A DNA stretch of 64,000 nucleotides from Vitis vinifera (Eukaryota > Streptophyta > Magnoliopsida > Vitales > Vitaceae), in NCBI RefSeq assembly GCF_030704535.1, contig NC_081810.1, forward strand, positions 3,143,501 through 3,207,500. Direction: 5' to 3'. Position numbers and translations under genes: made by a program. The notes beneath the pieces were generated by a model. It searched no databases, was not told where the DNA came from, and saw only the letters and a list, made by a program, of their open reading frames with translations. Positions 4,437 through 55,170 of this stretch are shown here, piece after piece (within the stretch, counting starts at the first letter, position 1; every line of letters begins with the position of its first letter).

Positions 4437-4476
4437 TGGAGTGTCTGAAAATGATGTTACTTGGTTGGTAGCGTTC

Positions 4477-4847: not shown

Positions 4848-4848
<1 letters not shown>

Positions 4849-4879
<31 letters not shown>
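4849..4879. repeat. CT microsatellite
   Basis: About 15 CT units followed by a C/T-rich tract, typical of plant 5' leaders where GA/CT repeats can bind GAGA-binding (BBR/BPC) proteins. Confidence 0.85.
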
Positions 4880-4881
<2 letters not shown>

Positions 4882-5214
4882 CTTTTCTTTCCCTTTCTCT
4901 CCCTCTATTTCTATCTCTCTTGTGCGTTTGTGGATGTGCGTCTGAACGATTATATTTAATGTTTCGTTATGTTTCTGTCTATAGACGGGTACTTATTCGT
5001 CTGTGATTATCTCATTCATTGCAAGCTTCATATTTGGCTTTTAAGTTTTTAACTTCGACTGAACAGCAGGAAATGCATAGGATGATATATCTAGTTGATG
5101 GGTTGTGATAGAGTTCTCTCCTCAAACCATGTGCTGGGTGAGTTTTAGTGGTGGCAGGTTGCAGTAAGGCCTTCAGTTGTGAACCCAAGAAACGCTAGCT
5201 AAGATCTTTTTTGG

Positions 5215-14344: not shown

Positions 14345-15691
14345 TCAACTGGGAAACTTTGAACCTGCAAATACCAAAATAGCATTCAAAATATTAAAAC
14401 CAACAAGGCCAGAACTAAATAAAATGAAATAAAAACTGGAGGATTAAGTTTATGTTAGGGAAGTTTTTACAAAACCAATTTCAAAATATGGATTTAGAGA
14501 ACAACTTTTGAAAATTGTTTTCTAAAGTTTTATAGAACAAGAACTAGAAATGTTTTTAACCTATTTTTTTCCTCTCTCTATATATAACATGTTATGTGAA
14601 AACAACTTGTATTTTTGTTTTTTGATCATTTTTCCTTTTAACCCGAGAACAAAAAATTGTTTTTAAAAAATAATTAACAAGGAGAGCCTAAGACCTTGTT
14701 TGGTAGTAGTTTTCTAAAATAATCTTTAAAAACTATTCACAAACAAATGCTTATTTAAAAACCTAAAAATGTTTTTAATCCATTTTTTATGTTTTTAAAA
14801 TGATTTTTATATGTAATGATTTAAAAGCGGTTTTATATTTTTTGATTGTCAAAAGTTTTACAAAAAAAACTATTTTCAAACCCTAGAATTTTCCTTAAAA
14901 AACTCAAACAGCAACTCAAAATCCGACGTAAAACATAGTTAGAACTCTACTTTCCATTTCTCAATGCAATATCCAAAATTCAAATATATAACTTTAAAAT
15001 AAATAAAAAATCAAAAGAAACAAGTCGTGCCTTTGCCTTTGCCTTTGCAGTTATACGAACTGGGATTAACCTCATGCAACCACAATCCAGGAGTTAGATT
15101 CTACAAAAAAACCAAGACAAAAGGAATTAGCTGCAATTCAAAACCCTAGAAAACATCATATCATCAACTAACAATATAACAAGATTGCCTTACATCTAAA
15201 ACCTTCTGCACATTCTTTGGTCTCTTGTTTGGCTTTCGAGGGGGTTTGGAACCAGTCATCTTAAGGAAGTCCTCTTCAATCTCCTCCCGAGAAAGTGTGA
15301 TCGAGAACTTCTTCGGTTTCTCATTTTTCTTTGCATTTTCTGGAATGTTACTCTTAGGATTTGATATTCCTGATCGTCCCCCCACCGCATTGGTTCTTGA
15401 CCTCAGATTCCATGTCCTCTGCCCTAATTCTTCTCCATCTTGTCCTTCTCTTCCCATTCCTTTTTCCGACGCCGCCGTCAATTTCTTTTCACCATGACGG
15501 ATCGTTAGCTTCAACTTGGTCGACACCTCGCCCTTACCGTAACACATTCCATTTTCGAGAGTATTAGTTCCCAAATTATTCCTATTCTTCGACTGAGAGT
15601 CACCATGACTAGCATCCTTAGGGCTGTTCCTCTCCAATTTCTGGCACGACAACGACAAGGTTGGCAGCGGTTTAGAGTTGGCTGAAGCCAT
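14345..15691 (-). CDS. DUF1639 family protein, copy 1
   Basis: Plant-specific DUF1639 protein of unknown biochemical role. The main exon (15194-15691, 166 codons) carries RTWNLRSR at 92-99, FSITLSREEIEEDF at 129-142 and the basic MTGSKPPRKPNKRPK at 145-159, ending ..VQKVLD. A GT donor joins it to 15043-15100, which encodes NLTPGLWLHEVNPSSYNCK, the usual PGLWL block. A last exon at 14345-14364 (ending SKFPS, stop) is inferred from the second copy near 21.2 kb. In this copy the donor of exon 2 reads GC, within a GGCAAA repeat, where copy 2 has GT. If that intron is retained, translation stops at 15011. An in-frame ATG at 15739 would add 16 residues; the inner ATG is preferred because copy 2 has a stop between the two. 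About 191 aa. Confidence 0.8.
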
Positions 15692-16435
15692 GACTTGGTT
15701 GTGGTTCTCACTGGATTTGGCTCCGGGAGCAAGCACCATCGCCAGAGAAACAGAAGCTAAAAGCCCTAGAAATTGAAAAGTTCTTTCAAAAAGAGAATAG
15801 AAATTGAAGTTCCATGAGAAACAAACAAATTTGATTTTAGAAGGATGAAGTGTGGAGATACATATACATAGATATGTACATGTTGCTCATTTTTCTTATT
15901 TATGTCAAGTTTCTAAAAAAACTATTAAGGTCTAATATTAAGGCTCATCAGTTACCAGATAGAAAAAAAATATATATCAAACATTAATTTCGAAGAAAAA
16001 GAAACAAATAATAATGATTGAAGGGAGTTTTTTGGAATGCACAACAATGGATTCCTTGCCTCTACATGCTTTTCTTATTTTGATATATCTAAAAAATTCT
16101 AGCTCTCCGCTTAATTCATCTCAAAAGAACCCCAAAAGTCCAAAACCAACGAATTCTCGTAAAATCCCAATGCAAGAAAGAGAAATCAAGAAACAGTAGC
16201 AATTTAAATCAAGCCAAGAAACAAGCGGAGAAAATTCAGAAATCTTCCCTGAAATCGGAAGAATAAGATTTACGAAGAGAAGTAGAAAGATGAACGGAAT
16301 TCAATGATCGGGAAAAGCAATAAAGAGGGAAAAAAGAAAAAAAAAAAAAAAGGTAATGTTATAAGAAAATCTTCGCTCTTATTTTCTAGACAACCAAACA
16401 GAGAATAAAAATGAAGAAAAGATAAGAGAACTTAC

Positions 16436-21214: not shown

Positions 21215-22224
21215 TCAGTTATGAGACTTTGAACCTGCAAATAACAAAACAGTATTTGCATCATGTTTCAATATATTAGAACAGAAAACTCTTAAGCAAC
21301 CACAGCAAATAGATAGCAAGAGTAGAAAGAAAAAGAAAAAGAAAAGGAAATTTGAAAGGCTAAACTTTTGCTTTAACTCTATCAAACAATATTTTGGTTG
21401 TTTCGGAAGCCTTAACATAGACCATGGACTCAAAACTCTACTTTTCCTTTCTCATTATGGAGTCATCCAAACAGACTACTTTCCAAAATTGATAATAAAA
21501 AATAGAAATAAGAAACAGGTTATACCTTTGCACTCATATGAACTGGGATTAACCTCATGCAACCATAAGCCTGGAGCCAGATTCTGCAAACCACCAAAAC
21601 AGAAGGCTTTAGCTGCAATTCAAGACCCTGCAAATCTAAATAATAAGAGACGCATCATATCATAAGGACAGGTAATGATGTTACAAGATTGCCTTACATC
21701 TATTACATTCTGCACATTCTTGGGTCTCCTCTTTGGCTTTCGAGGGGGTTTGGAACCGGTCATTGCAAGGAAATCTGCTTCAATCTCCTCCCATGTAAGC
21801 GTGATCAAGAACTTCTTCGGCTTCTCCTGCTTTTTTGTAGTTTCTAAAATGTTACAAATAGGATTTGATATTCCTGATTGCCCTCTAATTGCATTGAAAT
21901 GCTTCCTCACTGCTGTTCTTGGCCTGAGATTCCATGTCCTCTGTCCTAATTCTTTTTGATCTTGTCCTTCTCCTCCCATTCCTTGTTCAGATGTCACTGT
22001 CAATTTCTTTCACCACGGTGGATGACTATCTTCAATTTTGTGGGTTTCTCATCCAAAACCTCGCCCCAAGTGTAAGACATTCCTTTTTCAACATTATCAG
22101 TTCCCAAATTATTCTGATTCTTTGACTCAGAGTCACTGCAATTAGTATCCCTGGGGTTGTTCCTCTCCAGTTTCAAGCACGACAAGGACAAGGTTGGCAG
22201 TGGTTGAGACTTGACTGAAGCCAT
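21215..22224 (-). pseudogene. DUF1639 family copy 2, frameshifted
   Basis: Diverged duplicate of the gene at 14345-15691, in the same orientation. The ATG at 22222-22224 opens a frame parallel to copy 1 up to RGERN, then hits a stop. Where copy 1 has TTTCTTTTCACC (plus strand), this copy has one T fewer at about 22007-22011. The frame resumes as 21698-22003 with RTWNLRPR, FLITLTWEEIEADF and MTGSKPPRKPKRRPK, then 21526-21583 (LAPGLWLHEVNPSSYECK, here with a proper GT donor) and 21215-21234 (SKSHN, stop). A stop also lies just upstream of the start, between the two candidate ATGs seen in copy 1. The single-base loss makes it a likely pseudogene, though a sequencing or assembly error is possible. 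Splice sites and the C-terminal block remain intact, so inactivation would be recent. Confidence 0.75.
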
Positions 22225-27674: not shown

Positions 27675-28515
27675 TGTTAGGATAGAGCCCTTAAAAGTTA
27701 GATGTAACGTATCAAATGAGATTTTAGTTTTCATTATTCAATTCATATGTGTATTTTTTTGAGCATTCAAACTTGTATCACTTGCAATGTACATGATTTG
27801 AGTGTATTAAGCGTTGCACAAAAAATTCAGGTCATGGGTTTCTTGCAAGTTGACGAGTTTACAATCATTTCACGAACTTAGACAATTGATATAAGGTTGT
27901 TGTGTACTACCTCTTAATTGGAATGATGACTTCTCTTGGTCATTGGGATGAGTTTCCTACAATGAGTGTACTAGCTTGTATGGTTACACATTAGATGGTG
28001 AATCATGACATTGGTTATAAGGTAGTCATAAATTCATCAAACTACTATGTTGCTTTGACTCTTATCCTTGAAAGAATATTGAGCTAGTGTTGGAGTTTTT
28101 AGTGACTTTAATCTATGAGTGAGACCTTAAAGTGATCATACATTTCTTATAAATTAGGTCACTACTAATTAAGAAAAGTGATAATAGGTATTCTTAATAG
28201 AAACATCATGATATCTTATGGATGTACCATGATATATCATAGGATTGAGAGATAGTGTCTCATTGGTGATCCTAAGGACTTGTAATTATAATAAAATATA
28301 TGGCGCAACAATAATTCCTTAAGTGAGATTTGACATATGTCTTTTATGGATTGGAGTATATTAGTTGATCATAAAAGAAGAGGACTTGAGACTCAAGGAT
28401 AGTAGAGTTAATCTTGACAGATTAATACTTTTTACCTTGTTAGATTATGAACATTAGTTCATAGGGAGTTTGCATGTAATGGATAGTAGGTCACAAACCT
28501 GAGAAACCTAGTTCA
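27675..28515 (+). mobile_element. LTR-like repeat, forward fragment
   Basis: Begins TGTTAGGATAGAGCCCTTAA and matches, with divergence, the stretch starting at about 62007. It is inverted relative to the adjoining copy at 28516-29398, giving a hairpin-capable arrangement with arms of roughly 0.7-0.8 kb. The TG start, and the TATA-like CCTATAAATAC in the longer copy at 63.2 kb, suggest a long terminal repeat. No retroelement coding region was found. Confidence 0.5.
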
Positions 28516-29398
28516 TGGGCAACCTTGCATAATAACCAAAACACCCTTATGCACAAGAAAACCTAGAGTCAATCCAAATCTCATAAACCATATCATCACG
28601 ATATATGAGCTAAAAGCGAGGACCACTGAGACCCATAAAAGTATTAGCTCCCTCTAAATCCAATTTTGAAGTTGATTCAACATTCTATTAAATGATATAC
28701 TTTAGCTCATAAAGAGCATATGTCAAATTCCACTTAAGGAATTATTATGGTGTCACAGATTTCATGATCACATGTCTTTTAGATCATCTAAGAAAACACA
28801 CTATTTCAATCTTATGAGACATCATGATGCCTTTATTGAGAATACTTGTTGTCATGATTAAATCTCCATCAATAGTGACTCAATCAATATGAATATATGA
28901 CCACTTTAAGATCTCACCTATAGATTAAAACCTCATATTGATTTTGGCATAAACTTAATATCTTCTTAAGGTTGAGAGTCTATACAATATAGTAGCATGG
29001 TGAATCATGACAATTGATAGTCTTACATCATAACAAATGATTTTAGCATTCCTCATACATCATGAATCACCGGTTGCATCACATATACTAAAGCACTCAC
29101 CATGGAAAACCCATCCCGACGACCAAGACAAACCATTTCTTCAATTAGAAGGTGGTGTACTACAATTCCTACTAGATTGCACAAATCAATGAACCGATTA
29201 TGGGCAACTTATCTACTTACAGGAAACTCATGACTTGTATCATTTGTTCAACTCCTAATGTACCCAAGTTATGTACAATGTAAAAGATATAAGTTGAATA
29301 CTCAAATCAATGTCAATACACCAAGGGGATAACAAAAGGACAATCAAATCTAACTTTACTACATTATGTCTTGCTTTTAAGGGCTCAATCCCTATAAC
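28516..29398 (-). mobile_element. LTR-like repeat, inverted fragment
   Basis: Reverse-complement relative of the preceding repeat, ending in GGGCTCAATCCCTATAAC, which mirrors the forward start. It reaches further into the repeat than its neighbour, matching DNA near 62900-63060. Confidence 0.5.
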
Positions 29399-29599
29399 CA
29401 CTTAAACATTTATTTGTATGAATTCAATCATACTATAAGAAGAGGTTTGGTATTCAAAGCAAGTTTGTTTTGTTAACACATGAGTTGGTCCCCTCTTTTT
29501 AGCTTATTTGTTCCATTCTAAGCTTTGATCCACTTAGGTTATCTTTCTCTTGTTATCAATTGATACCAATATTTTGTTATCAATTATATACTATGGATA

Positions 29600-31256
29600 G
29601 GACTAGCTGATGGAACCATATGAGGGTTAAACCTTAGAGGTTGGCTAGGAAGACCTAGAAAAGCAAGCCTTTGTTATTGTCTATTGTTGGGAAAACATTC
29701 CTTGGATCTAAATTAAAAGGAGTATGCAACTAATATCCTAGGTGCAACTAAAGATGTCAAATTTTCAAAATATTACTCTAGGATGTTTTTAGAAAAGATA
29801 CCTATGCATTTGGATGTTCCCAAATCCATTTTCTAAGTTGTAAACTTTTGAATACAAAAGATGTTCTCGAAGACCTCATGGTTTTCCACATGATGACTCT
29901 TTCTTGGATCTTGGCAATGAAGAAGCATGGGATTCTCTCCAAAAAGAGTGGTGGCTAGGGTTTCTTTTTAACACTAAGTGGAAAACAATAATATATCTAA
30001 CCCTAAACTTTAAGAGGGTTTATATTGACTCATAACCAGGTTTAATTGATTAGGGCCTATTTTATGGGCTTAGGTTACTTAATCTAGTGCAACGAGTCAT
30101 ATTTAATTGATTAGCTTGAGGATTAATTAATTAAAGAGCCTAAAATGAAAACTGATAAGCCATTTAATTATAAGTCATTGTGCAACCTTGTGCTTATGTA
30201 AAAACACCCTTATGCATACTTATAATTAAATACTAAAAATTCCGCAAAATTTTTTTTACCAAAGACTATGAGCTCAAGAGGGGACCACTTGGATCTATAG
30301 AAAAGCACTGACTCTCTTAGAATCTAATTATCAAATTGACTCAATGTTCTATTAAAATGAGTCAACTACACTCCAATATAAACATTCTATCAAAATAGAA
30401 AACTTGGGACTGTGATCTACTATATGTTCATTGCATGTAAGTTCCCTATGAATTAATGTTCATATAATCTAACAAGGTAGTAGATATTAACATTTCAGAT
30501 TACCTTTCAATCCTTGAGTCTCTTATCGTTCTATATCATGATTAATTAACATACTTTAGCCCACAAATGACATGTGTCAAATTCCATTAAAGGAATTACT
30601 ACGACCATAAATTACATATTCATGAAATTCTTAAGATCACCCAAGGAAGACATATTGTCTCAAACTTATGATATGTCATGGTGCCTTTATTGAGAATATT
30701 TGTTGTCACCTACCTAAACCATTAGTCACCTAATTTGTAAGGAATATATGATTGTTTTAGGATCTCACCCATAGTCAAAGTAATTAATGACCTTAGTACT
30801 AACACAATATTTTCTCAAGGTCAAGAACCCATGCAATATAGGAGCTTGAAGAAGTCATGACAATTTGACAACCATTAGTTATGACTATTCGTAGAATCCT
30901 ATTTATTGTGTAAAAATACATATTAATACACTTATCATAGAAAACTCATCTTAATGATTAAGATGAGTCATCCAATTCAAAGGTAGTGTATTATGACATT
31001 TGATGGATTGCCTAAGTCTATGAGTCAATCATAAACTTACTCATCAACTTGTAACGAGTCCATACTTGAATATTTTATGTAATTCTTAATATACCCAAGT
31101 GATGTACAATATAAATGATGAGACGAGAATGCTTAAATATGTTATAATGCAAAAGTAGAATAATAATGAAAAAGTAGATTAATAGTAAAGTAAAATTCAT
31201 ATTATATGTAATGAAGTCAAAATATCATATCATGTCATTCTACCCTAACATATATC
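29600..31256 (-). mobile_element. LTR-like repeat, long inverted copy
   Basis: The right end ATTCTACCCTAACA mirrors the forward start TGTTAGGATAGAG. Inside are diverged counterparts of the stretches shared by the copies at 28 kb and 62 kb, for example AATTCCATTAAAGGAATTACTA. The left boundary is approximate. No coding content. Confidence 0.45.
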
Positions 31257-32196
31257 TACTAGTGTCACCAATTGTTGATACTGTTAAGAAGGATGTTGAT
31301 ACTGTTAAGCAGGATTGTTGGCCCCCTCATGTAAGGTGAATTTCGACGTGACATAATGGGTTGGTAATTCTTCTTGCAAGACATGCAAGACAGTGGGTGA
31401 TTTGTGGAGTCCATCCAAGGCCTTAGAGTTCCCGTGGGCTAAATTGGTCTAAAGCTTCATGCGCTAAATCGATCTCAACTGCCAATTCCTCGTACTTGTG
31501 TTCTAGTCTTCTTTTGTCCCTAGCCTGCTCACCAGAATCATTGCAATGAGAGGGCTGTAATTGTGATAATTGATTTTGCACAGCTTTCTGTTCTACTCTC
31601 TTTTCTTTCAGTCCCGATTTTTCTTGGGATGGAGCTTCTTCTTGATTCATGGCTTCGTATTCTAAATAAGTGGGAAAGTTTTGGCTTTCCGATAGAAGGC
31701 GCCAACGAAGATGCTAAAATTTCTTTATCAAACAAGGAAGACGGTTGATCTTTTTAGCTGTTTTCCCTGATCTGTTTTCCCCGTTTCTTAACCTAACTTT
31801 CTAGTATTGGTTCTTCCCCAAGCTCTTTGAGTCGTTGGCATATTGTGTGTAGGTACCCCTGAAGTGGAGGTAGTTCGGTTTTTTGCTCCTTGAGTCACGA
31901 CAACATTATTTTAGGCCTCATGAATGTCTAAAATTATATCAAACAATAGAGTACGTAGCTCGTTCACAAAGACATGCATAAGAATGTAATGGAACCATGA
32001 TCATACAATAAAACCCAATATTTCATTTCATAATTACTGTCAAGCTCTTAGTAATCCTAGGAGGACCCATAATTAATACATTACAGCAACACTTCCAAAG
32101 CCCAAAACACAAACCATTATCATATTCTCTCTACTCGCATATGATCACAATCACCCCAACTATAATGACTAAGACATACTAGCTAGTAAAGACATA
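31257..32196. other. GC-richer block of unknown origin, then intergenic
   Basis: From about 31260 to 31900 the composition changes to balanced bases. A minus-strand frame (31423-31650) reads as a charged, helical 75-residue peptide containing KYEELAVEIDLAHEALDQF. An overlapping plus-strand frame exists. No family is recognised. It may be a captured exon or an organelle-derived insertion; neither can be shown here. The last 250 bases before the small gene are probably its 3' UTR. Confidence 0.4.
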
Positions 32197-32427
32197 CTAG
32201 TTTTTCTTGCCACCATCGCCATCGCCCCCGCCCCCTTTGGAGCCACTGCCACCATAGTTATTGAAGTCCTGCCTAGGGATGGTATGGTGGTTGTTCACAC
32301 CTTTGTCTTCTTCATAGCTCGTCTCAACAAGTTGCCTCTCTTGCATTCCCACCATAAAAGTTTTCATGTTTGCGGCCATGCAAGAGCTCACCATCATCAA
32401 AGCTAGAGCAAGTGCCAGGAACCTCAT
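32197..32427 (-). CDS. Small secreted peptide-like protein
   Basis: A 76-residue protein with a clear N-terminal signal peptide (about residues 1-19, MRFLALALALMMVSSCMAA), a short variable region, a distinctive NNHHTIPRQDFNNYGG box at about residues 45-60, and a Gly/Lys/Asp-rich tail. The layout (signal, variable spacer, short conserved-looking box near the end) is that of plant peptide-hormone precursors, but the box does not match the CLE, RGF/GLV, CEP, PSY or IDA consensus, so no family is assigned. Gene structure supports expression: a TATA box at 32652-32659, a short leader exon with donor CCTATG|GTAAGT (exon edge 32595) and acceptor GACAG|TACTG (exon edge 32460), then the ATG 33 bases inside exon 2. 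The leader exon ends in ATG, which after splicing would give a tiny upstream frame (ATG TAC TGA). Confidence 0.72.
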   Translation of the reverse strand: MRFLALALALMMVSSCMAANMKTFMVGMQERQLVETSYEEDKGVNNHHTIPRQDFNNYGGSGSKGGGGDGDGGKKN

Positions 32428-32651
32428 TCTTGAGCCTTTTTTTTATGCTCTTGATCAGTACTGTCATTCAGAGACCAAACAAAGAAACTCAAGGTGAGAA
32501 AGAGAAGTATAATATATGTCTTGTCTTAAGACAAAATTCTTTTAAACACCAAAATATCCGTACTTTTTGGAACTCAGAGAAAAAGTTCACTTACCATAGG
32601 AGAGGGTAAACAGCTGTGACTTGATGGGGAAGCAAGGAGAAGTTCGTAGGG

Positions 32652-32659
32652 TTTATATA
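32652..32659 (-). promoter_or_regulatory. TATA box of the small secreted peptide gene
   Basis: TATATAAA on the minus strand, about 57 bases upstream of the leader exon's splice donor, next to a GA-rich tract. Position and sequence fit a plant TATA box. Confidence 0.6.
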
Positions 32660-32660
32660 G

Positions 32661-33538
32661 AGAGAGAGACATGCTAAGGCTATTGTGATTGATGGTTTCT
32701 AATAAAAATGTTGGTGATGGAGTCTCCACCAAATGGGGCAAGGTTAAGTGGGATACCCATATAATTCCATTAAAATGGTTTTTTAAAACATCTAAAATGA
32801 TGGGGTTGAGAGAATTTGCTTTGGCTCCACACTGGCACTATAAAGAGGGAAAATCCCACCTTACAAGTGGAATTAGCTAAGACAAGTCAATGGGGCACGG
32901 TGGAGTGGCTATTCCATTTTGCCTTGTGATGTCAAAGAACAGTTAGAAACATCCTCTCTGTGAAGATTTCCCAGAACTGTGTCTTCTGTGAAGTGGGGCA
33001 ATCTCAGATGAGACATTTGGAAATCCTTTCGGTTTCAATGATTACTGGGATGCTGAATCACATGAATTCTTCCTAGCATCTAGCCTCAAAGCTATATCTA
33101 CGCTTATCCTGTCCCCTATAGGTTTCATTATTTTCAATGTGCCCATCAAATTGTGAGGCCTGCAACTTGGTAATCAACTTGCCAACCCTTTTCGATTTGA
33201 TGAAAGGGAGGGAGATTCCAAGAAAGCTCCTTTTCTACAGAAATATGGAAAATTGGTTCCTTATCCCAATATTGCTGTCACCCATAAGGAAATGGCAAGT
33301 GAAGATATAGGGATAGTATCAGCAAGAGTATCCATGGAGATATGTTTGTCTGGTTGGCAGTGCCAATTGCTTTTGTTTACAAGACGGGTACTTGCAATTT
33401 TATGTCCCTATTGTAAATGTCAGAGGCGATGATGCTACATGTTTATCCGAACAATAGTGTTGAATTTATGATTATGAATAAAGAGAAGAATGATCGAGCC
33501 ATGAGTTTTGAAAAAAATATTATCATGTTATTTATTAA
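32661..33538. other. Intergenic DNA upstream of the peptide gene
   Basis: Mixed composition, probably promoter sequence for the minus-strand peptide gene. Short frames only; no domain recognised. Confidence 0.45.
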
Positions 33539-33864
33539 GGTTATGTTTGGTTCCCGGAAAATACTAAGGAAAGAAAAAAAATGTAAAGGAAAATGATTTT
33601 TTCATGTTTGATTGTCTTATAAAAAATATAAAAGAAAATCAAATATAATTAAAACTAATTAAAAACTTATGTATTTTAAAATTATTTAATCTTTATATTA
33701 ATGAGTTAAAATAAATAAAATGAGTTTGAAGTAAAAAATAAAAATAACTTATCAACTTTTAATCCATTTTTTATTTTCCTTCACTTTTTATTTTCTTCTA
33801 TTTTTCCTTTGTATTTTCTTTCCCTTGCATTTTCCCTCAAATTTTCTGAGAACCAAACATAGCC
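33539..33864. mobile_element. Tourist-like MITE, intact copy
   Basis: Ends GGTTATGTTTGGTTC and, reversed, GGCTATGTTTGGTTC, with TAA flanking both sides (33536-33538 and 33865-33867). AT-rich core with an AAATGAGTTTGAAGTA block. Relatives lie at 50504-50801 and around the CACTA insertion (left part before 38898, right part 43503-43717). Confidence 0.8.
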
Positions 33865-33867
33865 TAA

Positions 33868-35233
33868 ATTTATCAAAATTATTATTACAAAAGAGTAATA
33901 TTATATTGTCTCATATTAGATAAATGAATTTTTTTTTAAGATTATTATGTAAATATGAACTTCTCTTTATTTTGTAAACATTGTTTTAAAGTCATAAGAA
34001 TTATTTAGGTTCAAAATGAGTAATATTTATTTTATTAGGAGTGGGTCATCACAAATCACAATAAAACCTTAGAGACCCGACAATATTTATAAGATATGGA
34101 CAAAATCAAAATATCAAATCACTTTTACATTTCTATTAAAAATACCAACAATAAGCTGTATTCCTTAATTCACAATATTATTCATTTTAGTACTAAATAA
34201 TATTAAATGACAAGTCCCGGAAAGGGTCAAAATTTACCTATTTGGGTATTCTAATTTCACTTGATTGAAAAATATACGGTTCAAAGTAACCCAATATTTG
34301 AGGTGGTGTAGATTCAGGCAGATGCCGTTCCATTTGAGATTAAGTCAGGTTTTGCATTTTCAGAATATAATGATGACAGTAAACCTGTAGCTTATTGTGT
34401 ACTTGATCCATGTCTATCCCCGACATCTCAAGTGTGCCAAGGATTTTTACCAGCTAAAAGCTAAGAATTTCCAATGGGCTCAAACCAAGTGTCAAGGGGA
34501 AGGGGTGATGTGGGAGGCTGATTAATCATTTCAAAACATGATTTTCATTAGTTTTCTTTCTAATCCTTTTTGTTTAACAGCTTTTGCTTGATTGTACAAT
34601 GTAAATATCTAGGGTCCTCTTTGTTTTCAATTACCAAAAAGGGCATAAATTCTAAACAACCAAAAGAATTAATTGGCTAAAAAAGATAAAATAATCTGTA
34701 TATTTATAAATTTAATTTTTCTTATATTTGATTTTTAAAATACCTATTTTTGACATAAATAAAATTTTTTATTTTAAGTATTTACATGTAATTTTGAAAA
34801 ATGGTTATTTTCATAAGAAAAAAATAAAAATATTTTTGTCAAAATGAAACCAACATATTATAAATGGTTAAATTTCCAAATATGAGTTTGTAATAATCCT
34901 TTTAATCAAATAACCCCATCCAAAGTTTTTGATCACCCATTGCATACATGTATTGGTGGAAGTAGATGAAATCTTGTTTTTCATTTACATAGGAAACATA
35001 TATTTCTAATGTTAAGTTGTGTTGCGTTCACTCGTGAAGTTCTAAAAATCTAGGCTCTAAAATAATATTAAGTTTTCAATTAATTTCAAAATTAAAAGTA
35101 CCAACAATATATATCAAATCAACTTAGACCAAGGTTGGGCTATAATATCTAGTAATTATTAAACAATATCAAATTAGGAGTTTACATAAAAATATTAATT
35201 AGACCTCTAAAAATTAAAAATAAAAGAGGAAAT
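33868..35233. other. AT-rich intergenic DNA
   Basis: No gene or structured repeat was recognised. Confidence 0.55.
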
Positions 35234-35556
35234 TTTATTTGGTAATTGTTTTTCAGAACAGTTTTTTGTTCTCCTGTATAAAAAATACAAAAAATATGTT
35301 TACCAATCAAAAATTGTTTTTAGATAACATTTTTTAGGTATTTTATATTATTTTCATTTATTTTCTAAGGATCATTTAAAAAAATAATTATACAAATATT
35401 TAAAATAATTAAAAATAAAACATTAGATATAAATTTTATTTTTAAAATATATTAAAAACGGATTAAAAATATTTTAGGCTTCTAAATAGATTTTTATTCT
35501 GCAAAAATCATAGAACAGTTTTAAAAAATTAATTTTTAAAACAATTACCAAATAAA
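35234..35556. mobile_element. MITE with perfect 19-bp terminal inverted repeats
   Basis: TTTATTTGGTAATTGTTTT at 35234 is repeated in exact reverse complement ending at 35556. The two halves are also broadly complementary inside (ACAGTTTTTTGTTCT against AGAACAGTTTTAAA), so the whole could fold. Diverged relatives appear near 14690-14890, 19110-19495, 25130-25490 and 46240-46570. Confidence 0.75.
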
Positions 35557-36119
35557 CACTAGTTTCTTGATCTACTTTCCAACTATGAATACATATGGAG
35601 ACTTCATTATATAGCTACAATTAAATTTTGCAATCTACATACCTGCATGACATAATAATGGACTCCCAACAAAATCTCTTTTTCCCTAAATTACATCACC
35701 AAAATATAAGAACATTTGAGAAATCAGCTTTGCGAGTCCCCCCGGTACTGCTCTCACATATGAATGGACTCATCATAACATCAGATTTGGTTCACCATTA
35801 TAGAATATTTTATTTAAGTTGGAAAATTATAAGGAAAAAATTATTGAAAAAATTCAACATTGAGGACTTTTAGTGGTCGGCGATCATTATATCGAGCCTT
35901 CCTTTTTGAAGGAATTACTCTAAGCTTGAATCCATATGGTGTGCCCTCAGTCAATTAGCTCGAAATGGAATTTTTTTTAAATTCTGAACCAATGATCAAA
36001 TTTTAAAGATTATGACATAATGTTAATTTTTTTATTTTAATTTTTTATAAATGAGAGGTATTTTTTGTTCAAGATTTTATTCTACATTAATTACTTCACT
36101 TTTGATTATAGATAGTAAT

Positions 36120-36525
36120 GAAATGAGTTTTTTCAGGTACCATCCCATCTTATCTTTAATAGAACGAGTTTGAAATGTAAATAAATAGGCTAGAGATAGG
36201 GTTTTAGATTTTTTAAAAAAATTAGGATCGGGGTGGGTTTGAATATTGCCTTGTTCCGCTGAGCCTTGATTATATACAAAATTAATTTAATTTAATTTTT
36301 ATTTTTCTATTTTTAATTTATAATAATAATAATAATTCATAGATTACAAAAATTATAATAATTTAATTATTTTTAAAATATATTTATTTTAATGTAATTT
36401 AAAATTTAAAAAAAAAATTCTTCTAAAAAACCGTTAAAAGAAGGGAGATGAAAATTATTTTGAATAAATGAGACAAGATTAAGATGAAAGTGACACATCC
36501 CGTCCATGCCATTCCTATTTTTAAT
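36120..36525. mobile_element. Element with GC-rich ends, older copy
   Basis: Diverged relative of 37305-37812: it shares GGGGTGGGTTTGAATATTGCC, the core TTAATTTAATTTAATTTTTAT, and the right-hand GAAAATTATTTTGAATAAA followed by CATCCCG. Boundaries are approximate. Confidence 0.55.
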
Positions 36526-37304
36526 CCTCAAAGCACCTAATTTTGGTTAATAAATAACCATCACCTTATGCAAGCATGGACATCCCATCATAATGCCCAA
36601 GGCAAAATTCCAAATTCTCAATCCAGTTTTTTCTTCAATAACACATAAAATATGAATGCTTTAATTTTTTTTAATTCATTTCTTTTTTTGAAAAAAAAAA
36701 ATTCTTTTAATGACTTCTTAAAAAATAAAAAATTATCACATATATTTTCTAAAAGAATCAAACATACATGTAGAAGGTTGGCTGAAAGTAAATTCAAAAG
36801 GATTGTATTATTATTATTATGTCTTCTAATAAAATGACAAATTATTGAAAATGGAAAAGGCATGTAAAGAAATATAATATTGTGAATCGAGTGTAGGAGG
36901 AAAATGGGAGGACTAATTATGGAAGTCAACTAGTGGCCCTTCCAATACTGATTAGTCATCAAATGATAATTGAAAATACGTGTTTAACTTGTTCGTGTCC
37001 ACTATTTTAAAAATCATATTTGGAAACGCTTTTCAAATATGGGATGCTACTGTCTCCAAATTTGACATCCTTCATTCCTTCTGCCCTATCATGTCTAGAA
37101 ATTCCATTATTTCTTTGAGCTCAGTGATGGTCGGTGCACAACAATGGTTTCAATCTTACCATTGAAATTCCTCTTTAACCCTAGATTGCTTTGTACTAAA
37201 GTAAATCGAGAAGAAATCTCCAAAAGCTCCCACAATGGAATCTGGAATGACTAGAATCTCCTTTCAAAAACCATTGTATTAAAAGGGAAAATGTTAAGCG
37301 CATA
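36526..37304. other. Intergenic DNA, no gene seen
   Basis: AT-rich, with short frames only. Confidence 0.5.
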
Positions 37305-37812
37305 GGAATGACAATAGGGCTGGTTTTTTCAAGTATTCGCCTCGCCCGACCCCTAATGGGACGGGGTTCAATTTTAATAAACGGGTTTGAGAATTTTTTT
37401 TTCAACCCGGGGCGGGTTTGGAGCGGGTTCGGGTATTGCCCCGTCCCGCCTCGATTATATATAAAATTAATTTAATTTAATTTTTATTTTATTATTTTTA
37501 ATATATAAATAATAATAAAATATTTTTAATAAAATAAGTTATAAAAAATATAATAATTTAATTATTTATAAAATATATTTATTTTAATGTTATTAAAAAA
37601 TTTTAAAGTAACTTTTTAAAAAAAATTAAAATTCAAAAAAAAGTTAAACGAGGCGAGGTGGGGTAGGTACGAGAATTTATCATACCCACCCCGTCCCGCC
37701 CCGCCCTGTTTTATTTTTTAAATGGGATGAGGATGAAAATTATTTTGAATAAACGGGACGGGATTGGGATGGGGGCGATCCATCCCGAACCCGCTCCGTT
37801 GCCATCCCTAGA
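37305..37812. mobile_element. Element with GC-rich inverted ends and an AT core
   Basis: The left end TAGGAATGACAATAGGGCTGG and the reversed right end TAGGGATGGCAACGGAGCGGG are imperfect inverted repeats. The outer 100-130 bp on each side are rich in CCCGCC/GGGCGG, unlike everything around them, and flank a nearly pure A/T core of about 200 bp. Non-coding. It resembles non-autonomous DNA elements common in dicots; the superfamily is not established. Confidence 0.65.
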
Positions 37813-38829
37813 CATGCATCTATCAAATTTTAAATTTAAACTATTTGAATATGTGGTAAAATTTACACTATTGAATATGAATGAAATCAAAGCACAAATG
37901 AATAAAATCGAATTTTGAAAGTACGAACAAATGTAATTAAGATACAAAATACATGAGATATCAAAATATTATGTGACATTACCTAATTGGTAGTGTCTTT
38001 TTGTATGATGCCATAAAGTTACCTTTGTATGACCTTATTAAAAGATATGACAAATGTTCATCTAAAATTTGCAAACATGAAAAGTGGAGATGCATGACCT
38101 AGTTTCCCCGAGATGGACCTCTAGGTCTAACCATGTCTCAAAGTTATTGAGCTTACCCGATGAGCTTATTCAAGGTGGATGAGAGCCTCATCAATTTGCC
38201 GAACAAGATCTCCAAGGTTAATTTGTTCAATTGAGAACACATATTGTGTCATGCCTTAAGATTCACTCCAAGGGAATAAAAGGTCATTTCACACCTCAAA
38301 TTTGAAGATTCAAAGTGAAAATAACTCAAAACAATCATTTTGTAGTGAAATATATAGAGTAGTAAAATATATTATAATCCTTAAAATTTAGCTTTAGTAA
38401 AAAAAAAAAAAAAAATTAACGCATTTATCCGAACAACTTCAAACTTAAATAATTCAAATGGTAATTAAATTCTAACATCTAAGCAATGTCCAAAAATAAA
38501 AGTTTAACTCAAAAATCCTAATAAGGACAAATTCTCAATCTAATTAATCACTTTTCACTCGAACTAAGATGGCTGAAAAATATTAATGAAAATGAATGAA
38601 CTCAAAGCTTAATAAAAAATATTAATATAGTTTCATTGATAAAATATTTTCAATTATGATTACAAATAAAATATATAATATAGACTTTTTTCAGAAGGAT
38701 TTTTTAGTTCAAATATGTTGAAACATCCAAAACTTTTTTTTTAAAAAAAAAATCATATTTATGCCAATATAATTAATTTCACATCAAATCCAAATAAAAT
38801 ACATTCAAAATATTTTTACTCTAATTTGG
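37813..38829. other. AT-rich intergenic DNA
   Basis: No gene. A trace of the AAGATACAAAA-type repeat occurs at about 37920-37960. Confidence 0.5.
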
Positions 38830-38898
38830 TTTCATATTTGGTTTTCTAATATTCGGTTTCAACATGAAAAATACAAAAGAAAATTAAATATAATTAAA
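38830..38898. mobile_element. Left part of a MITE split by the CACTA insertion
   Basis: Ends AAATATAATTAAA at the CACTA border. Joined across the element to 43503 onward, it recreates the arrangement in the intact MITE at 33539-33864 (there AAATATAATTAAAACTAATT). The outer left end is diverged and uncertain. Confidence 0.5.
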
Positions 38899-39871
38899 CA
38901 CTACAAGGAAAAATATATATGGTGACATTTATAACGAGTCACCATAAACATAGGGTGTCACTACAACATAGCGTCACCTTCTCCACTGACACCATAAAGG
39001 GTACCAATTGGTGACGTATTTGGAAGTGACACCAAAGTAGATAAATGGTGACCCATTTGGAAGTGACACCATATATTTCTAGTGATGATAGGGTGTCGCA
39101 TTAAATGTATCATCTTTGAGTTATGATGTCACATTAAATGCATCACCTTTGAGTTATGGTGTCACATCATTGTAAATATTGTGGAATATATGATATCTTT
39201 TAGTTGTAGATTTTTGTAATGCTTATCAATTAATAAGATTGATTCACCTGTTTATATTTTATCCATAAATATAACAATCATATTACATTTAACTCTTTTT
39301 TCTGTAATGTTTCTGGAATAACTCATAATACATTGATCATCTAATAATATTTGTACATCAAATGTTCACAAAAAGATAGTACATCCAACATATCAAACCC
39401 ATCAAAACTAAAAAAGAAGAGTGAATACATACCAAAACATGATGAAATGTTAAAGATACCAAGATTCGTGTATACATCCATTTCATAAGCATAAAATCGG
39501 CTAACTATAAAATGACATAAAAGTCGCATCTAAAAATCTAAAATTCTCAGTACCAATTAAAGTAACATTTATGTCCTACAACATATGACATAAGAGTTGC
39601 ATTTAAAAACCCAAAATCTTGTTGTCTTCTTTCTTTTTATTCTCCATTCCACCATCCCAAGAGTGTATACCTGCATTTCATAGTTTAATGAGTTTTATAG
39701 ATTTTTATTTAAGAAAATAAACATGGATCGATGTTATCATAAATGAACAAATTTAAGAACTATTTTTTTTTCTTTTTTTCAAATAGAAACATTATTCAAA
39801 GAATAAGCAATACTATACAATACCTATGGAAAAATTCATGTAGTAGCTAAGGGACTCACCATGCATGGTGA

Positions 39872-40760
39872 TCATGATGCATCAACATGATTCATGATTA
39901 GTTGTAGCACAAAAGTAGCCCATTCTCCTATAATTTCATCAAATTCTACTTGAAAATATGTTTTTTTTTATCACCAAACTGAATCAAATAAGAAAATAAC
40001 ACTAAAATGCATAACATTTGGAAGCCTAAAACTATGTACAATTCATTAAATAAGTAATACCTTTGAAGCAATAATTGTAGGATAACAAATTATCTCTTTA
40101 ATAAATCTCATAACAAAGTAGTCACATTCGAACCCTCCTTCTTGTCTTAGACACTAATCGATCAATTATAAAATAACATTAGTACTCATATATATATAAA
40201 TGGTGCAAATGCATAAGCTAATGTGTAAAAAAAAAAATTTGGATGTCACATGCACTAGTTGCCAAGATGGCTCCCTCTTGGATGATTTCTTTGCAGATAT
40301 TTGAAGAGCCCTATGTAAATAAGTTCAATGGGTACATTTTTAAAATAGGTAAATGTTATATGTTTTAATACATATAAATAAAAATAAAAAATGTGTTTGA
40401 GGTGAATGTATTTTTTTTTTAAATAATATTATGAAAAATAATAGGAAGAACTTACATGTTTATGATATCGTTTAAGTCATCACATGGTTTGTGATACATA
40501 GGGTCAAGATAGTGGACTATCATTTTCCTTGGCTCAATCACTACCAAGACCCAATGAAAGCTAAAACATTAAAAACAAAAGTAGCATCTAATTAGAAATA
40601 TAAATCAATCATAAAACCTCATATTAAAGTATAATATTCGTCACTTACTCGGGGTTAGGGAATGAAAACATATTTAGCATCTTGGCACTCTATTAAGCGT
40701 TTTGCCAACAATTATGCTCTTTTCTCTGTTTGAGGAGTACTAAAGCCTGCTCGTGATATT
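39872..40760 (-). pseudogene. Ulp1-type (C48) protease remnant of the CACTA element
   Basis: C48 cysteine proteases of the Ulp1 type are a frequent second gene in plant CACTA elements. Exon-like blocks on the minus strand: about 40640-40720 (KRLIECQDAKYVFIP, then a stop where this family often reads YNP); 40456-40560 (FHWVLVVIEPRKMIVHYLD, containing the conserved His-Trp and later Leu-Asp); 40236-40310 (KREPSWQLVHVTSK); and 39872-39955 (EFDEIIGEWATFV, stop). Donor GTAAGT at 40455 and acceptor ATAG at 40311 join the middle blocks in frame. The glutamine/cysteine block expected after SWQLVH is not seen. The stop in the first block and the missing catalytic cysteine indicate a dead copy. The family call rests on motif pattern only. 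Confidence 0.6.
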
Positions 40761-42754
40761 GTAAAAGGATTAACAACTATAAATTGGTTGGATATTTGGC
40801 AATTGCCATTGCCATTTCTATAAAGTTGTATATTTGAAAAATAAATTGTGACATAGCACATGATCTAAACTTGGTGGGGCATCACATGGATAATAAATTC
40901 AATTGTAGTTGCTTCCCTATTGAACCAAATGATGAATTCAAGACCCTGTTTCAAAGGTGAGTGCATCATATTCAAGGTGGCTTAACTAAATTGGTCAAAC
41001 AAATAATTTAAAATTATTAGTGATAACGGTAAAAAAAAGTTGCAATTAAATGCAGGTGACTATGAAGAACAGAAATCATCTGCTTGGATTTATATTCAAA
41101 TTAGATTAATCACCGAATCTATATTAATACCTATTTAAATTAAGGATATCATGTCTCGATCATCTCACCAATGCAACATATTCATACTTTTAGTTGTGAT
41201 GGCATTATTTTATTTCAGTATTTACAGCTCATCAATTTTTTAATTAATTATGAACATATACAACTTCTCATCACATCACAAATAAAAGAAGCTTTTTGTT
41301 AAAAATAAATAAATAAATAAATAAATTTATGGAGAGTAGCAGAGTGCCCTTGAGAGTTAAGGGGGCATACGGATTTTGGTGATGTGATGTTTCTCTTGGC
41401 TGTAGAGAGAATATAATATGCAGTGGCTAATTTCTAGGAAACCGGTGTTGTATGAAAACCTATCTCATGTATTTTCCATCAAACCATAATCAAGTGACTA
41501 CGTGTGACGAGGCAGCTCAGCAATCACGCCCCAAACTCCAATGAATCAGACACCATAAAAATCACAACTCACACCTTGCCCAACCACCTTCCTAGATCCT
41601 GCATGCTACTCTCTTGGATAATTCATCTTACCTTTGGTCAGTCTATCACTCTTCATTCTTCTGCAATTACACACTTCTCGTTGTTTTCTTTAATTTAATT
41701 ATCCTTACTATACTATTATTATTTTCTGCTTTCTTAGATGTGAGTATTGAATATATCTTCAATACTTTCTAAGTACTTCTAACTTCCATATTTTTCACCA
41801 AGTAGAGCAAAACCCATTTGATTTAAACCACTGAAACACCTATGACTTTAGCTAATTTCTGACATGGGTTTGGGTTTAATCTTCAAATCCATCCAAGCTC
41901 TTTCTAATCATGTGTGTGTAATGGGTAGCAGTATACTTGATAAAATGCTTTCAACTGTTTCAAAAAAATTTCTTTTATCATCAAATAGAATAAAAGACAT
42001 TAGGTTAAGATTATTGATCATGTGTGTTTTGATAAATCAAAGAGTATATATGTCTTAATCTTTGTTACTATCTTCCATCAGACAATATATATCAATTTTT
42101 TTTATAGTCTTGAGAAGCTTTTTTATGTCTGATACAATACTTCAAATTGCTTTCAAAAACAAAATCCCATTTGTTTAGAGGACTTCTTTAATCAAATAGG
42201 TACTAGAAATGTTATTTAAACCCACCAGATGTACTTCCCATTAAAATAAAAAAAAAATAAAAAAACTAAAAACATGAGGTTAAGCATATGCTAGTGGTCA
42301 TATGCAAGTAAATATGTAAGTCTCTCTTCTTCTTCTTCAGTATTTGTAGGGTTTTTTTCTTGAGTCATGTGAGTCTGCAATGAAATGCTTTATGAATTAA
42401 ATACATAAAGGGTTTTAATTAGTCAAGAAGAAACTCCTTTTTCCTTTATTTGTTTATTTTTTTAATCTTTCTAGTGGGTGGGGGCTTCTTGAGAAGTATA
42501 TGGATTGTGGAGAAAGTAATGTGAGTGGAGCAAAGGATTACGATTGTAGGTGGGTAGGGAATCTCATGCAAAATAGAGGACCACAGAGAGAGAGAGAGAG
42601 ATAAACACACACTCTCTCTCCATCTCTATATCTCTATATCTCTCTATCTTTTCATCTCTCCATCTCTTCATCTCTAGTTCGTTAACAAAGAATATAAATA
42701 CGGTCAAAGCAGGTAAAAAAAAAAAGGACAATGGGTTTGGTCAGGGGCAAAAGA

Positions 42755-43055
42755 GAAGAACCTTAAGCATGACGAGGTCGACCGCGTCCTCGCCATTGCC
42801 GGCCGATTTACACACCGCCTCTATCATCCCCTTCCCATCAATCACGCCACGGATCAGCCCTAGCGAATACAACTTGAACAACCACTCCAACGGCGGCTCC
42901 ATGACCTTCGCAGAGGCCGAATCAAGAGCCAGCAAAAGAGGCTGCAAAACGAATTCCACATCGAAAATCGATAATCCGAACACTGGCGAGTTCGAATTTG
43001 GATCCGACAGATCTGAGAGGGTTTCGATCTTGTCGAGCACAAATTTATATTCTCA
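42755..43055 (-). pseudogene. Captured fragment of a BIG-type ARF-GEF gene
   Basis: The minus strand reads VLDKIETLSDLSDPNSNS, then VLQPLLLALDSASAKVMEPP, FKLYSLGLIRG and VDLVMLKVLL. This matches the start of the N-terminal dimerisation (DCB) region of plant BIG1-BIG4 type brefeldin-A-inhibited guanine-nucleotide exchange factors, which activate ARF GTPases in vesicle traffic. Only about 100 of roughly 1,700 residues are present. The Sec7 catalytic domain is absent, and the frame ends in unrelated sequence on both sides. Base composition is clearly GC-richer than the element around it. It lies inside the CACTA element, so transposon capture of exon 1 of a host gene is the best explanation. Confidence 0.8.
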
Positions 43056-43085
43056 ACCAAACAACACCCACTCTCTAGTAATGCA

Positions 43086-43245
43086 TGTCTGGACTACTTC
43101 CGGTGGATCTACGAGGATCTCCGTCCATGGGTGGAGACCGGAATCACCAAAGAGATGATGGAAGCAGCGAAGAACCCACTATTCTTCAGGCTAGTGATAT
43201 TGGACGGAAAGGTTTACATGGAGAAATACAAGAGGACAGTTACAA
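43086..43245 (+). pseudogene. Captured fragment of a GT90 (rumi-like) O-glucosyltransferase gene
   Basis: The plus strand reads CLDYFRWIYEDLRPW, then TGITKEMMEAAK and FRLVILDGKVYMEKYKR. This is the conserved start of the glycosyltransferase family 90 (CAP10/DUF821, rumi-like) domain of plant proteins. Only about 53 residues survive; the rest of the domain, the upstream membrane anchor and any start codon are absent. It begins 30 bases from the BIG fragment and runs in the opposite direction, so no natural gene explains the pair. Located just inside the 3' subterminal repeats of the CACTA element. Confidence 0.78.
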
Positions 43246-43502
43246 TGGGCTTTTTATATATTATTCCTCATTATTAATTCTAAAAGTGGGCTCGTTAAGT
43301 TATAATACTTAAAAATTTTTATTTTATACGATGTCACTTCCCAAAAAATGACACTATAAATATAAAACTAACATCATCTAACTACCTCAATTGAAGATTT
43401 TTTATATGATGTGTCACCTTTATTAATTATAAACCATATAGTGTCATTATTTTAAAAGTGACACCATAAATAGTGACACCATAAATTATTTTTGTAGTAG
43501 TG

Positions 43503-43717
43503 AAAATTAGTTAAAAATTTATACATTTTAAAATTATTTAATTTTTATATAAAAGAGAAAAAATAAGTGAAATGAATTTGAAGTAGAACATAAAATAATT
43601 TATTGATTTTAAGTCTATATTTCATTTTCCTTCACCGATTCTTTCCTTTTACTTTTATTTTTTATTTTTTTCCTTCGCATTTTCTCTCACAAATTAATAA
43701 GAAATCGAACATAGCCA
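43503..43717. mobile_element. Right part of the MITE split by the CACTA insertion
   Basis: Continues from the target duplication with TTAGTTAAAAATTTATACAT, carries the family block AAATGAATTTGAAGTAGAA and ends GAACATAGCC, the mirror of GGCTATGTTTGG in the intact copies. Confidence 0.7.
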
Positions 43718-53078: not shown

Positions 53079-54896
53079 TCATACCATTCTGGCAAGGACT
53101 TTCATGATATCATCCATTGATGGCCTATGCAGAGGATCATCTTCCACACAAGCCTTGGCTAAAACAGCCAAACATAGAGCCTCTGCAAGAGGATAGTCCT
53201 CCTCAAGCCAAGGGTCCATGAAACTCCTTAATAGCTCGAAGCAATCGCCTTCAGAAGCCGCCCCACCCAAATATCCAATTGAATCTTTCAACACTTTCCC
53301 ATCCGTGTCCACCCTGGTCGAGATGAGCTCCAGCAGAACAACTCCAAATGCAAAAATGTCAACCTTGGCTGAAACTGCTGACTGATGGAGAAGGTTCCAC
53401 CCTCCAAGACCAAGTGTAGTACCATTTCCTTTTGAGAGTTCAACTGCAGGGATGCTTCCAAAATTTGCAAGTTTTGCTCTCCAGTTTGCTGTTACAAATA
53501 TACTTCTGCTGTTTATGCTCAAGTGGACATGCGAAGGAACTGTATAATAATGTAAATAGTGAAGCCCGGTTGCAATATCAAAAGCAATTTGGGTCCTTTG
53601 ATGCCACCCAAGAGGACTAGACGAATTAGATAAGCATTCTCTTAAGCAGCCATTGCTGGGAAATTCGAACACATGGTATGACAAAGAGCAGTCACTTTCA
53701 GTACCATGACAAATGCCTTGTAAATCTATTATGTTGATGTGATGGATTTTTGAATGTATATGGATAATATGGAGATGGTCTTCAAATCTCATCTGCTTGA
53801 TCATCACTTCAACATTATCCATCAACCCCTTATAAACACAATCATCTATCTTTGTATCTTCACTAAACTCCCTTGTTGCTTCCCTGAGCTCCTCTATGCT
53901 GTAATTGTGCAAAGAATATTTTATTCCAGCAAGAAGATCCGGAGATAAACATGAATTTGTGGAGTTTTGAGGGGATACTGGAGAGCTTCTAGCAGTAAAG
54001 GACTGAAGCTTCTCACCCTTACCTTTGTTCAAGGCCATAAAGTAGAATCCACAGAATGCAAGCAGCACTGCTACAAGCAGCAGACAGAGGAGTACAGCTG
54101 ATCCTATGATATACAAATTCTTCGACTTTGTGTTCCTCCTTGAGTTTTCTACTGATATTGTGGGAAGAAAACCTGGGGTTGGAGGTTGAGAATCTGTAAC
54201 ATTGGGATTAATAATTTGTACTGTTCTTAAGGGAACTAAAAGAGAGGTGTTTGGATAAACAGTGGGGCGAGGTACTAAATGGTTGGCTACCCATATAGTA
54301 TCAGGAGGAATGCCAAATTTTTTACCCAATTTCAATGTTCCATCACCTTCTCTAAGAGGATATGTCACAAGGTACTTCACCCCATCGCTACTAGTAAAAT
54401 TATCAGGACAAGCACATTTCAGTGGCACATGGAGTTTAGAATCAACCTTGGGGTCATTTACTTGAGAAGGATTTGCCTCACCAAGTGTATGTGGTTTCAG
54501 TAAGCCTTCAAAAACCCCACAAGCAATATCTGAGAATGTTGTGGTCCTAGGCACAGTGTAACTGAAATTTGCCTCAAAAAACTGGCCTGAACAAGAACAG
54601 TTGATGGGAATAAGAACTCCTTTACCTGGCATGAGTACCTCTGAAGGAGAGGGAAGATTATTCAAGTGAAGTAGGTCATCAGGGTTCATGTGGAACAGTT
54701 CAGAGATGCTTAAGATAGTTTGAAAATATTCGCTAGCTCTGTAGACCACGAAAGTTTGGCATGAATTCTGGAAGGAATTGCAGGTGTATCTCGAACCAGG
54801 ATAACTGGTGTCCCGAGAACATGGAGTTGAGTCATAAAATTGTTGAGCAAAAATTGCATTGATGCATGCCCCAAGGAGAAACCATAGATAAAACAT
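53079..54896 (-). CDS. LysM receptor-like protein with a degenerate kinase domain
   Basis: Single-exon, 605-aa plasma-membrane receptor of the LYR/LYK4-LYK5 type, a group that binds chitin or lipochitin oligosaccharides and signals with an active LYK partner. Signal peptide at 1-17; extracellular part with LysM repeats bounded by the paired cysteines CSC (100-102) and CAC (161-163) and several N-glycosylation sequons; transmembrane helix at about 261-287; kinase-like domain at about 345-603. The kinase is probably inactive. No glycine-rich loop is visible. A lysine remains at 367 (VMIK), but the HRD catalytic loop reads VHLSIN near 457-462 with no aspartate, and the DFG motif is NFG (478-480). 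Loss of these residues is normal in the LYR subfamily. Lack of introns and length also fit LYK4/LYK5/LYR3-like genes. Exact orthology is not assigned. Confidence 0.92.
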   Translation of the reverse strand: MFYLWFLLGACINAIFAQQFYDSTPCSRDTSYPGSRYTCNSFQNSCQTFVVYRASEYFQTILSISELFHMNPDDLLHLNNLPSPSEVLMPGKGVLIPINCSCSGQFFEANFSYTVPRTTTFSDIACGVFEGLLKPHTLGEANPSQVNDPKVDSKLHVPLKCACPDNFTSSDGVKYLVTYPLREGDGTLKLGKKFGIPPDTIWVANHLVPRPTVYPNTSLLVPLRTVQIINPNVTDSQPPTPGFLPTISVENSRRNTKSKNLYIIGSAVLLCLLLVAVLLAFCGFYFMALNKGKGEKLQSFTARSSPVSPQNSTNSCLSPDLLAGIKYSLHNYSIEELREATREFSEDTKIDDCVYKGLMDNVEVMIKQMRFEDHLHIIHIHSKIHHINIIDLQGICHGTESDCSLSYHVFEFPSNGCLRECLSNSSSPLGWHQRTQIAFDIATGLHYLHYYTVPSHVHLSINSRSIFVTANWRAKLANFGSIPAVELSKGNGTTLGLGGWNLLHQSAVSAKVDIFAFGVVLLELISTRVDTDGKVLKDSIGYLGGAASEGDCFELLRSFMDPWLEEDYPLAEALCLAVLAKACVEDDPLHRPSMDDIMKVLARMV

Positions 54897-55170
54897 GGTT
54901 TCTGATATATCTGTGCCTTCTTTTCAATGGTATAAAAAAGCACGGAAGCTCACCGTCTATTGCTGAATATGAACTGCTAAGGAAGGAATAATGTAATGTC
55001 AGAACTAGTACAAGAATGTGGTCACCAATAGTGGAAGAATTAGGTGGTTGCCTGGCGGGTGATGTCAGGTACAACCACCACTATTTAGATATTACAAGAC
55101 ATTTGTCAAGCCAAAACAAACCAACTTACTTTAAAGAAGAAACCTTCAACAAAACCATGGTTCGCCGGCC

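Follow-up and report, generated by a model that had tools for sequence, protein, structure and literature searches.

The element that occupies positions 38899 to 43502 of the window—the whole 64-kb stretch of Vitis vinifera DNA analyzed here, C6:3143501-3207500—is a non-autonomous CACTA transposon of the En/Spm type, and it probably came together in two steps: a fusion of two host gene fragments that was amplified, and then, in this copy, a replacement of the interior by template-switch repair. In the first step an ancestral CACTA element would have copied genomic DNA of a BIG-type ARF-GEF (ADP-ribosylation factor guanine nucleotide exchange factor) gene and of a GT90 glycosyltransferase gene, joined the two, close to its right end, at 3 bp common to both, and multiplied the fusion by transposition. 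In the second, on the line leading to the window copy, some 12.5 kb of interior would have given way to about 2 kb drawn from contigs C1 and C8, from an unmatched source, and from C13, the pieces being joined at shared sequences of 2–7 bp, as from interrupted gap repair with template switching. The product would rely on transposase supplied by its relatives. The genome searched comprises 495.6 Mb in 21 contigs, and the parts of the element, in window coordinates, are these:

38899 to 43502, plus strand: the whole non-autonomous CACTA element, 4,604 bp, CACTAC...GTAGTG, 20/26 terminal match, AAA duplication
38896 to 38898 on the left and 43503 to 43505 on the right, no strand: target-site duplication AAA
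38899 to 40786, plus strand: left end plus the backbone common to the family; 93.6% identical to a 15.6-kb copy on C12 and 93.0% to the element L022; subterminal repeats lie at about 38920-39160
40784 to 40978, plus strand: foreign piece 1, from C1:27606065-27606259 (minus), 96.4% identical over 195 bp
40977 to 41121, plus strand: foreign piece 2, from C8:15249627-15249769, 93.1% over 145 bp
41122 to 41370, plus strand: a 249-bp stretch without a source, no other match to it being reported from the genome
41371 to 42758, plus strand: foreign piece 3, from C13:5529143-5530535, 90.6% counting gaps, with 5.5% substitutions over 1,361 aligned bases
42752 to 43047, minus strand: foreign piece 4, a fragment of exon 1 of a BIG-type ARF-GEF gene, 91.6% over 296 bp to C3:2917036-2917331
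43049 to 43235, plus strand: foreign piece 5, part of an exon of a GT90 glycosyltransferase gene, matching C15:22952653-22952839 at 93.0% over 187 bp
43242 to 43502, plus strand: right end with subterminal repeats, 88–95% identical to the right ends at 14 of 17 related loci

The six base pairs between the GT90 piece and the right end, 43236-43241, are assigned to neither.

The element starts with CACTAC at 38899 and is closed by GTAGTG at 43502. Twenty-seven pairs of these hexamers, 0.5–25 kb apart, can be drawn up in the window, and the element's own pair has the best terminal match among them; matching 3-bp duplications accompany three of the 27, and the other two match at only 11/26 and 12/26. 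GGTG(A/T)C and G(A/T)CACC motifs are grouped inside both ends. A preliminary description of this DNA, made from the letters alone, had reported CACTA ends and an AAA duplication, and the terminal match, the subterminal repeats, and the AAA on both sides bear this out. The features of the CACTA (En/Spm) superfamily are all present—CACTA/G terminal inverted repeats, a 3-bp duplication, subterminal repeats, and, in a relative, a tnp2-type transposase—and, as in a Pack-CACTA, a non-autonomous element with CACTA ends holds host gene sequence with identifiable donors (C3, C15, C13, C1 and C8). In tblastn searches, five transposase-region pieces of that relative (L015/L030, on C12) match nothing in the window element, and self-comparison finds no second copy of the element in the rest of the window. 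Its left 330 bp have 324 candidate places in the genome; the 40 that were scored, the window included, are all at least 95% identical. Left ends are listed close to relatives on C9, C15 and C3. Elsewhere in the window, a second CACTAC...GTAGTG pair spans 28160-37995, with an 18/26 match and without a 3-bp duplication, and may be an older CACTA element or chance. Positions 38499-38826 are part of an abundant repeat that stops 72 bp to the left of the element; it has 910 candidate places, and among the 40 of them scored, those outside the window are 73–78% identical.

The same description had recognized a BIG piece on the minus strand and a GT90 piece on the plus strand, and had proposed that both were captured from host genes. 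Searching the genome for the parents finds both. The closest BIG gene is on C3 and the closest GT90 gene on C15, so that the two parents do not lie head to head elsewhere in this genome, and no CACTA ends are matched in the 10-kb stretches around either. The BIG piece scores 19.6 bits in a profile search for the DCB domain (PF16213), under the cut-off of 25.6; the parent exon, in a 360-residue open frame, scores 93.4 bits for DCB and 36.5 bits for Sec7-like_HUS, the start of the HUS domain. The GT90 piece reaches 67.4 bits for PF05686 against a cut-off of 24, and the parent open frame on C15 reaches 204.5. Searches of PDB sequences yield no match for the BIG piece and three weak ones for the GT90 piece, one to an RNA polymerase (E 0.32) and two to rumi/POGLUT1 (E 0.82 and 0.99). 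Where a gap of 30 bp had been placed between the two pieces, they abut, instead: the BIG parent reads ...GATTTACA where TGCTCAACC of the GT90 parent begins, ACA is present in both, and the pieces are joined directly through it, as can be seen in sister copies. One of these, L010, keeps the join nearly unaltered.

The fusion is found in many places. Positions 42720-43260, used as a query, have 30 matches in the genome, which we sorted ourselves into the window copy, nine other chimeras (10 matches, one chimera being split by an insertion), the two parents, and a remainder: five BIG-only copies, two GT90-only copies, four short diverged BIG matches—one of which, L027, sits inside a CACTA element with both ends—five GT90 matches in the neighborhood of the C15 parent, and a single 39-bp match that leads to C13. 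The BIG-GT90 junction is identical in all 10 chimeric copies, the window's included. The right end is recovered in six of the nine other chimeras, all five BIG-only copies, and both GT90-only copies. Both ends could be read in four copies, and each of the four has a matching 3-bp duplication: AAA in the window, TCC in L022 (6,764 bp), TCT in L027 (5,547 bp), and AAT in C12:384097-399707 (15,611 bp; L034, L029 and L009 taken together). Because the same junction recurs in every chimera, one of them a 15.6-kb element with its own AAT duplication, the fusion is evidently old and has been amplified. One chimeric relative, C12:9281323 (L015/L030), whose left end was not reached, carries BIG, GT90, and pieces of Transposase_21, Transpos_assoc and DUF4216, the transposase domains being split across several open frames. 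Three chimeric copies lie within 190 kb of one another on C18, at 30659032 (L016), 30744290 (L013) and 30844370 (L014); L013 and L014 have almost the same BIG-GT90 sequence, perhaps the result of a recent duplication or transposition at short range. One open frame in L029 seemed kinesin-like, but a Pfam check did not support this.

Fragments of genes are frequent in plant intergenic DNA, and the BIG and GT90 pieces might on that account be remnants of segmental duplications, or processed pseudogenes, that a CACTA element happened to hit later. We give this hardly any credence. The identical junction in 10 copies stands against it, as do the right ends that six of the nine other chimeras share about 0.5 kb past the junction, and an origin from mRNA is opposed by L009 and L010. 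In these two the BIG sequence is longer, about 1.2 kb, divided into three blocks and two blocks respectively, and in both it continues beyond the GTAAGT donor-like site that closes exon 1, into the presumed intron. Because of this extension the BIG sequence was, to judge from the copies, captured from DNA and not from mRNA.

The interior probably tells of a later episode. The backbone that the window copy has in common with L022 stops at 40786, and from there the sequence is a patchwork. The C1 and C8 donors are the only matches to pieces 1 and 2 reported outside the window, and the C13 donor is the sole long match to piece 3, three others being merely 32–62 bp. The patchwork as a whole was found once in the genome, in the window copy only, and because no other copy of the three pieces was found they probably arrived later, on the branch that led to the window copy. 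The scale of the change can be gauged from the 15.6-kb C12 copy, in which, counting from the left end, the backbone match stops at 1.9 kb and the BIG match starts at 14.4 kb; in the window copy, BIG starts 3.85 kb from the left end. By this measure, filler of about 2 kb seems to have taken the place of about 12.5 kb. The six sister chimeras in which a right end could be located have some 450 bp separating it from GT90, and the window copy lacks these too. The C1, C8 and C13 pieces had been overlooked before. Captured BIG and GT90 sequence was correctly recognized, but 'two host genes' is an undercount, since at least five foreign pieces are present, and the fusion, real as it is, is not particular to this element, since nine other copies carry it.

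The donors have neighbors of some interest. An open frame some 290 bp away from the C8 donor resembles, when judged by eye, the C-terminus of a receptor kinase. In the C13 donor (L028), a MIR160 hairpin (Rfam RF00247, 72.9 bits, gathering threshold 48) stops 183 bp short of the copied 1.39 kb, upstream of it and on the same strand, and for this reason the C13 piece may include part of the MIR160 primary transcript. The hairpin itself was not copied: an Rfam scan of the window at the gathering threshold gives no hits. A permissive scan of the element gave eight sub-threshold matches, six of them over a TC-rich tract at about 42560-42690, and we judged these to be chance.

How were the pieces joined? 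At the four joins for which both sources are known, adjoining sources share 3 bp (backbone/C1), 2 bp (C1/C8), 7 bp (C13/BIG, AGAGAAG) and 3 bp (BIG/GT90, ACA). The overlaps sum to 15, against a mean of 2.9 when the same sources are joined at random within 150 bp (P about 8e-5). Overlaps of this kind fit template switching during interrupted gap repair better than they fit local hopping. In the latter, CACTA copies that flank a piece of host DNA lose their inner ends and move thereafter as one element, a mechanism proposed for Arabidopsis Pack-CACTAs in those passages of PMC8903248 and PMC13317346 that deal with it. Nearby copies do exist—L013 and L014, which are much alike, are separated by 100 kb on C18. 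Local hopping predicts, however, that each event takes up one uninterrupted stretch bounded by two insertions, whereas here we have five pieces of 145–1,388 bp from five contigs, 2–7 bp overlaps at all four joins tested, and no element ends matched in the donor stretches fetched. We consider it an improbable route to this element.

Not everything sits comfortably with a two-step assembly that ends in template switching, and the points on the other side should be set out together. Dropping the 7-bp join weakens the overlap test to P 0.011, and the four joins tested exclude the two that bound 41122-41370 and the one between GT90 and the right end. The stretch 41122-41370 has no match elsewhere in the genome, in a search that skips simple repeats and very common words. 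All five donors are on contigs other than C6, where the element resides, and gap filling in metazoan Pack-TIRs draws mostly on nearby DNA, according to the relevant parts of PMC8277862; the element may have moved after capture. The yardstick for the lost interior is a rough one. Because only DUF4216, of the five transposase-region pieces, is matched by tblastn in the 15.6-kb C12 copy, that copy is itself defective; it is also a CACTA with BIG and GT90 that has 4.6 kb more than its relative at C12:9281323 (positions 3915-8554 of the C12 copy in the comparison), and the four open frames in this extra stretch match no Pfam family. Three of the nine other chimeras, L010, L013 and L014, show no right end within the stretch fetched. 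The window copy is 8.1% apart from the parents but 11–18% apart from any other copy, and only two of eight inner branches of the copy tree are well supported. Finally, the GT90-only copies, L025 and L026, hold 392 bp of GT90, which stop within about 1 bp of the apparent exon end, with no further GT90 exon matched at 60 bp or more. Since this piece is longer than the one in the fusion, the captures may have come in either order, and GT90 may have been captured separately.

The captured pieces appear to be decaying passengers, not a new functional gene. Distinct changes relative to the parents, pooled over 17 aligned copies or pieces, number 80 synonymous, 162 nonsynonymous and six to stop codons; nonsynonymous and stop changes together come to 168, and 162.1 are expected. 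No single copy shows clear evidence of constraint; L021 has the lowest value, and 64 of 1000 simulations were as low. Sites at which the window copy differs from the parents are concentrated at CpG (14/86) and CHG (12/58) rather than at other sites (13/340), the pattern that would be expected of methylated DNA, and it is from this concentration and the want of detectable coding constraint that we read decay. One might suppose, instead, that the fragments are put to use: that they are transcribed, and either encode a chimeric protein or supply small or antisense RNAs directed at BIG, GT90 or the MIR160 region. Pieces of two genes lie head to head at 92–93% identity to their parents, 1.39 kb come from beside a MIR160 hairpin, and antisense from transduplicated fragments has been suggested for the PPR fragment of Cactavine-5, in the portion of PMC2528002 that treats it. 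But the pooled changes, the substitutions at CpG and CHG, and the absence of the hairpin from the element all speak the other way, and function of this sort seems to us very unlikely.

Capture of host genes by CACTA elements is established, from Tgm-Express1 of soybean (PMC1947982) and the CACTAs of grapevine (PMC2528002), and we rely here on selected passages of these and of the papers that follow. The Cactavine elements of grapevine are complete at 10–25 kb, with a 3-bp duplication given for Cactavine-3, and also carry transduplicated host sequence: ULP in five families, and a PPR piece in two Cactavine-5 copies. 'Guanine nucleotide' and 'glycosyl' occur nowhere in the main text of PMC2528002, and its passages describe no piece from the flank of MIR160. 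Tgm-Express1, a CACTA of 5.7 kb, comes close, with pieces of five unrelated host genes, exon and intron alike; it differs in lying inside an F3H intron with its pieces spliced into transcripts, whereas the window copy lies within no recognized gene. The Pack-CACTA or Pack-TYPE elements of PMC8903248 are likewise non-autonomous CACTAs whose coding fragments derive from two or more loci. Tandem insertion and re-mobilization are proposed there, whereas the short overlaps at our joins favor template switching, and, unlike those elements, the BIG and GT90 pieces occur also in a large relative with transposase domains. Maize Ds2 and Ds-l4 (PMC3260210) have filler DNA copied from genes elsewhere, as here; they belong to another superfamily and another host, and the two captures for which a donor is named each drew on one gene. 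Breakpoint overlaps in metazoan Pack-TIRs (PMC8277862) are similarly short (median 2 bp) and are read as template switching, though superfamilies and hosts are again different and nearby donors are favored, whereas those of the window element are on other contigs. Literature on grapevine CACTA transduplication, or on capture of miR160 by CACTA elements, yielded nothing on the BIG, GT90 or MIR160-flank pieces, in its titles and the beginnings of its abstracts, mainly. The kind of capture is thus well documented, and this element is a further, well-resolved, two-stage example of it.

The example is of use, nonetheless. The routes proposed for the capture of host DNA differ, in the accounts drawn on above: local hopping for Pack-CACTA, template-switch repair for other cut-and-paste transposons. 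Here is a worked case in which five donor pieces can be placed in one assembly, four joins can be read, and nine sister copies of the older part survive. It is a warning to annotators as well, for exon fragments of BIG and GT90, and sequence adjacent to MIR160, occur inside transposons of this genome. More tentatively—and we lean somewhat away from so broad a claim—this family of CACTA elements might be a serial assembler, drawing in DNA from unlinked chromosomes by repeated short-overlap template switching, of which the window copy would be a two-stage record. If so, template switching, and not local hopping alone, would be a main route of gene capture by CACTA elements.

The rest of the window holds pieces or open frames of other genes. 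Pieces of a BEL1-like homeobox gene are on the plus strand at 5203-12913, where the POX domain exceeds its cut-off and Homeobox_KN, at 20.8 bits, falls short of the 24 required. On the minus strand, two similar DUF1639 open frames about 6 kb apart, at 15164-15886 and 21620-22009, are perhaps a tandem duplicate. A LysM receptor kinase open frame of the LYK4/5 type, also on the minus strand, lies at 53079-54923, about 9.6 kb to the right of the element.

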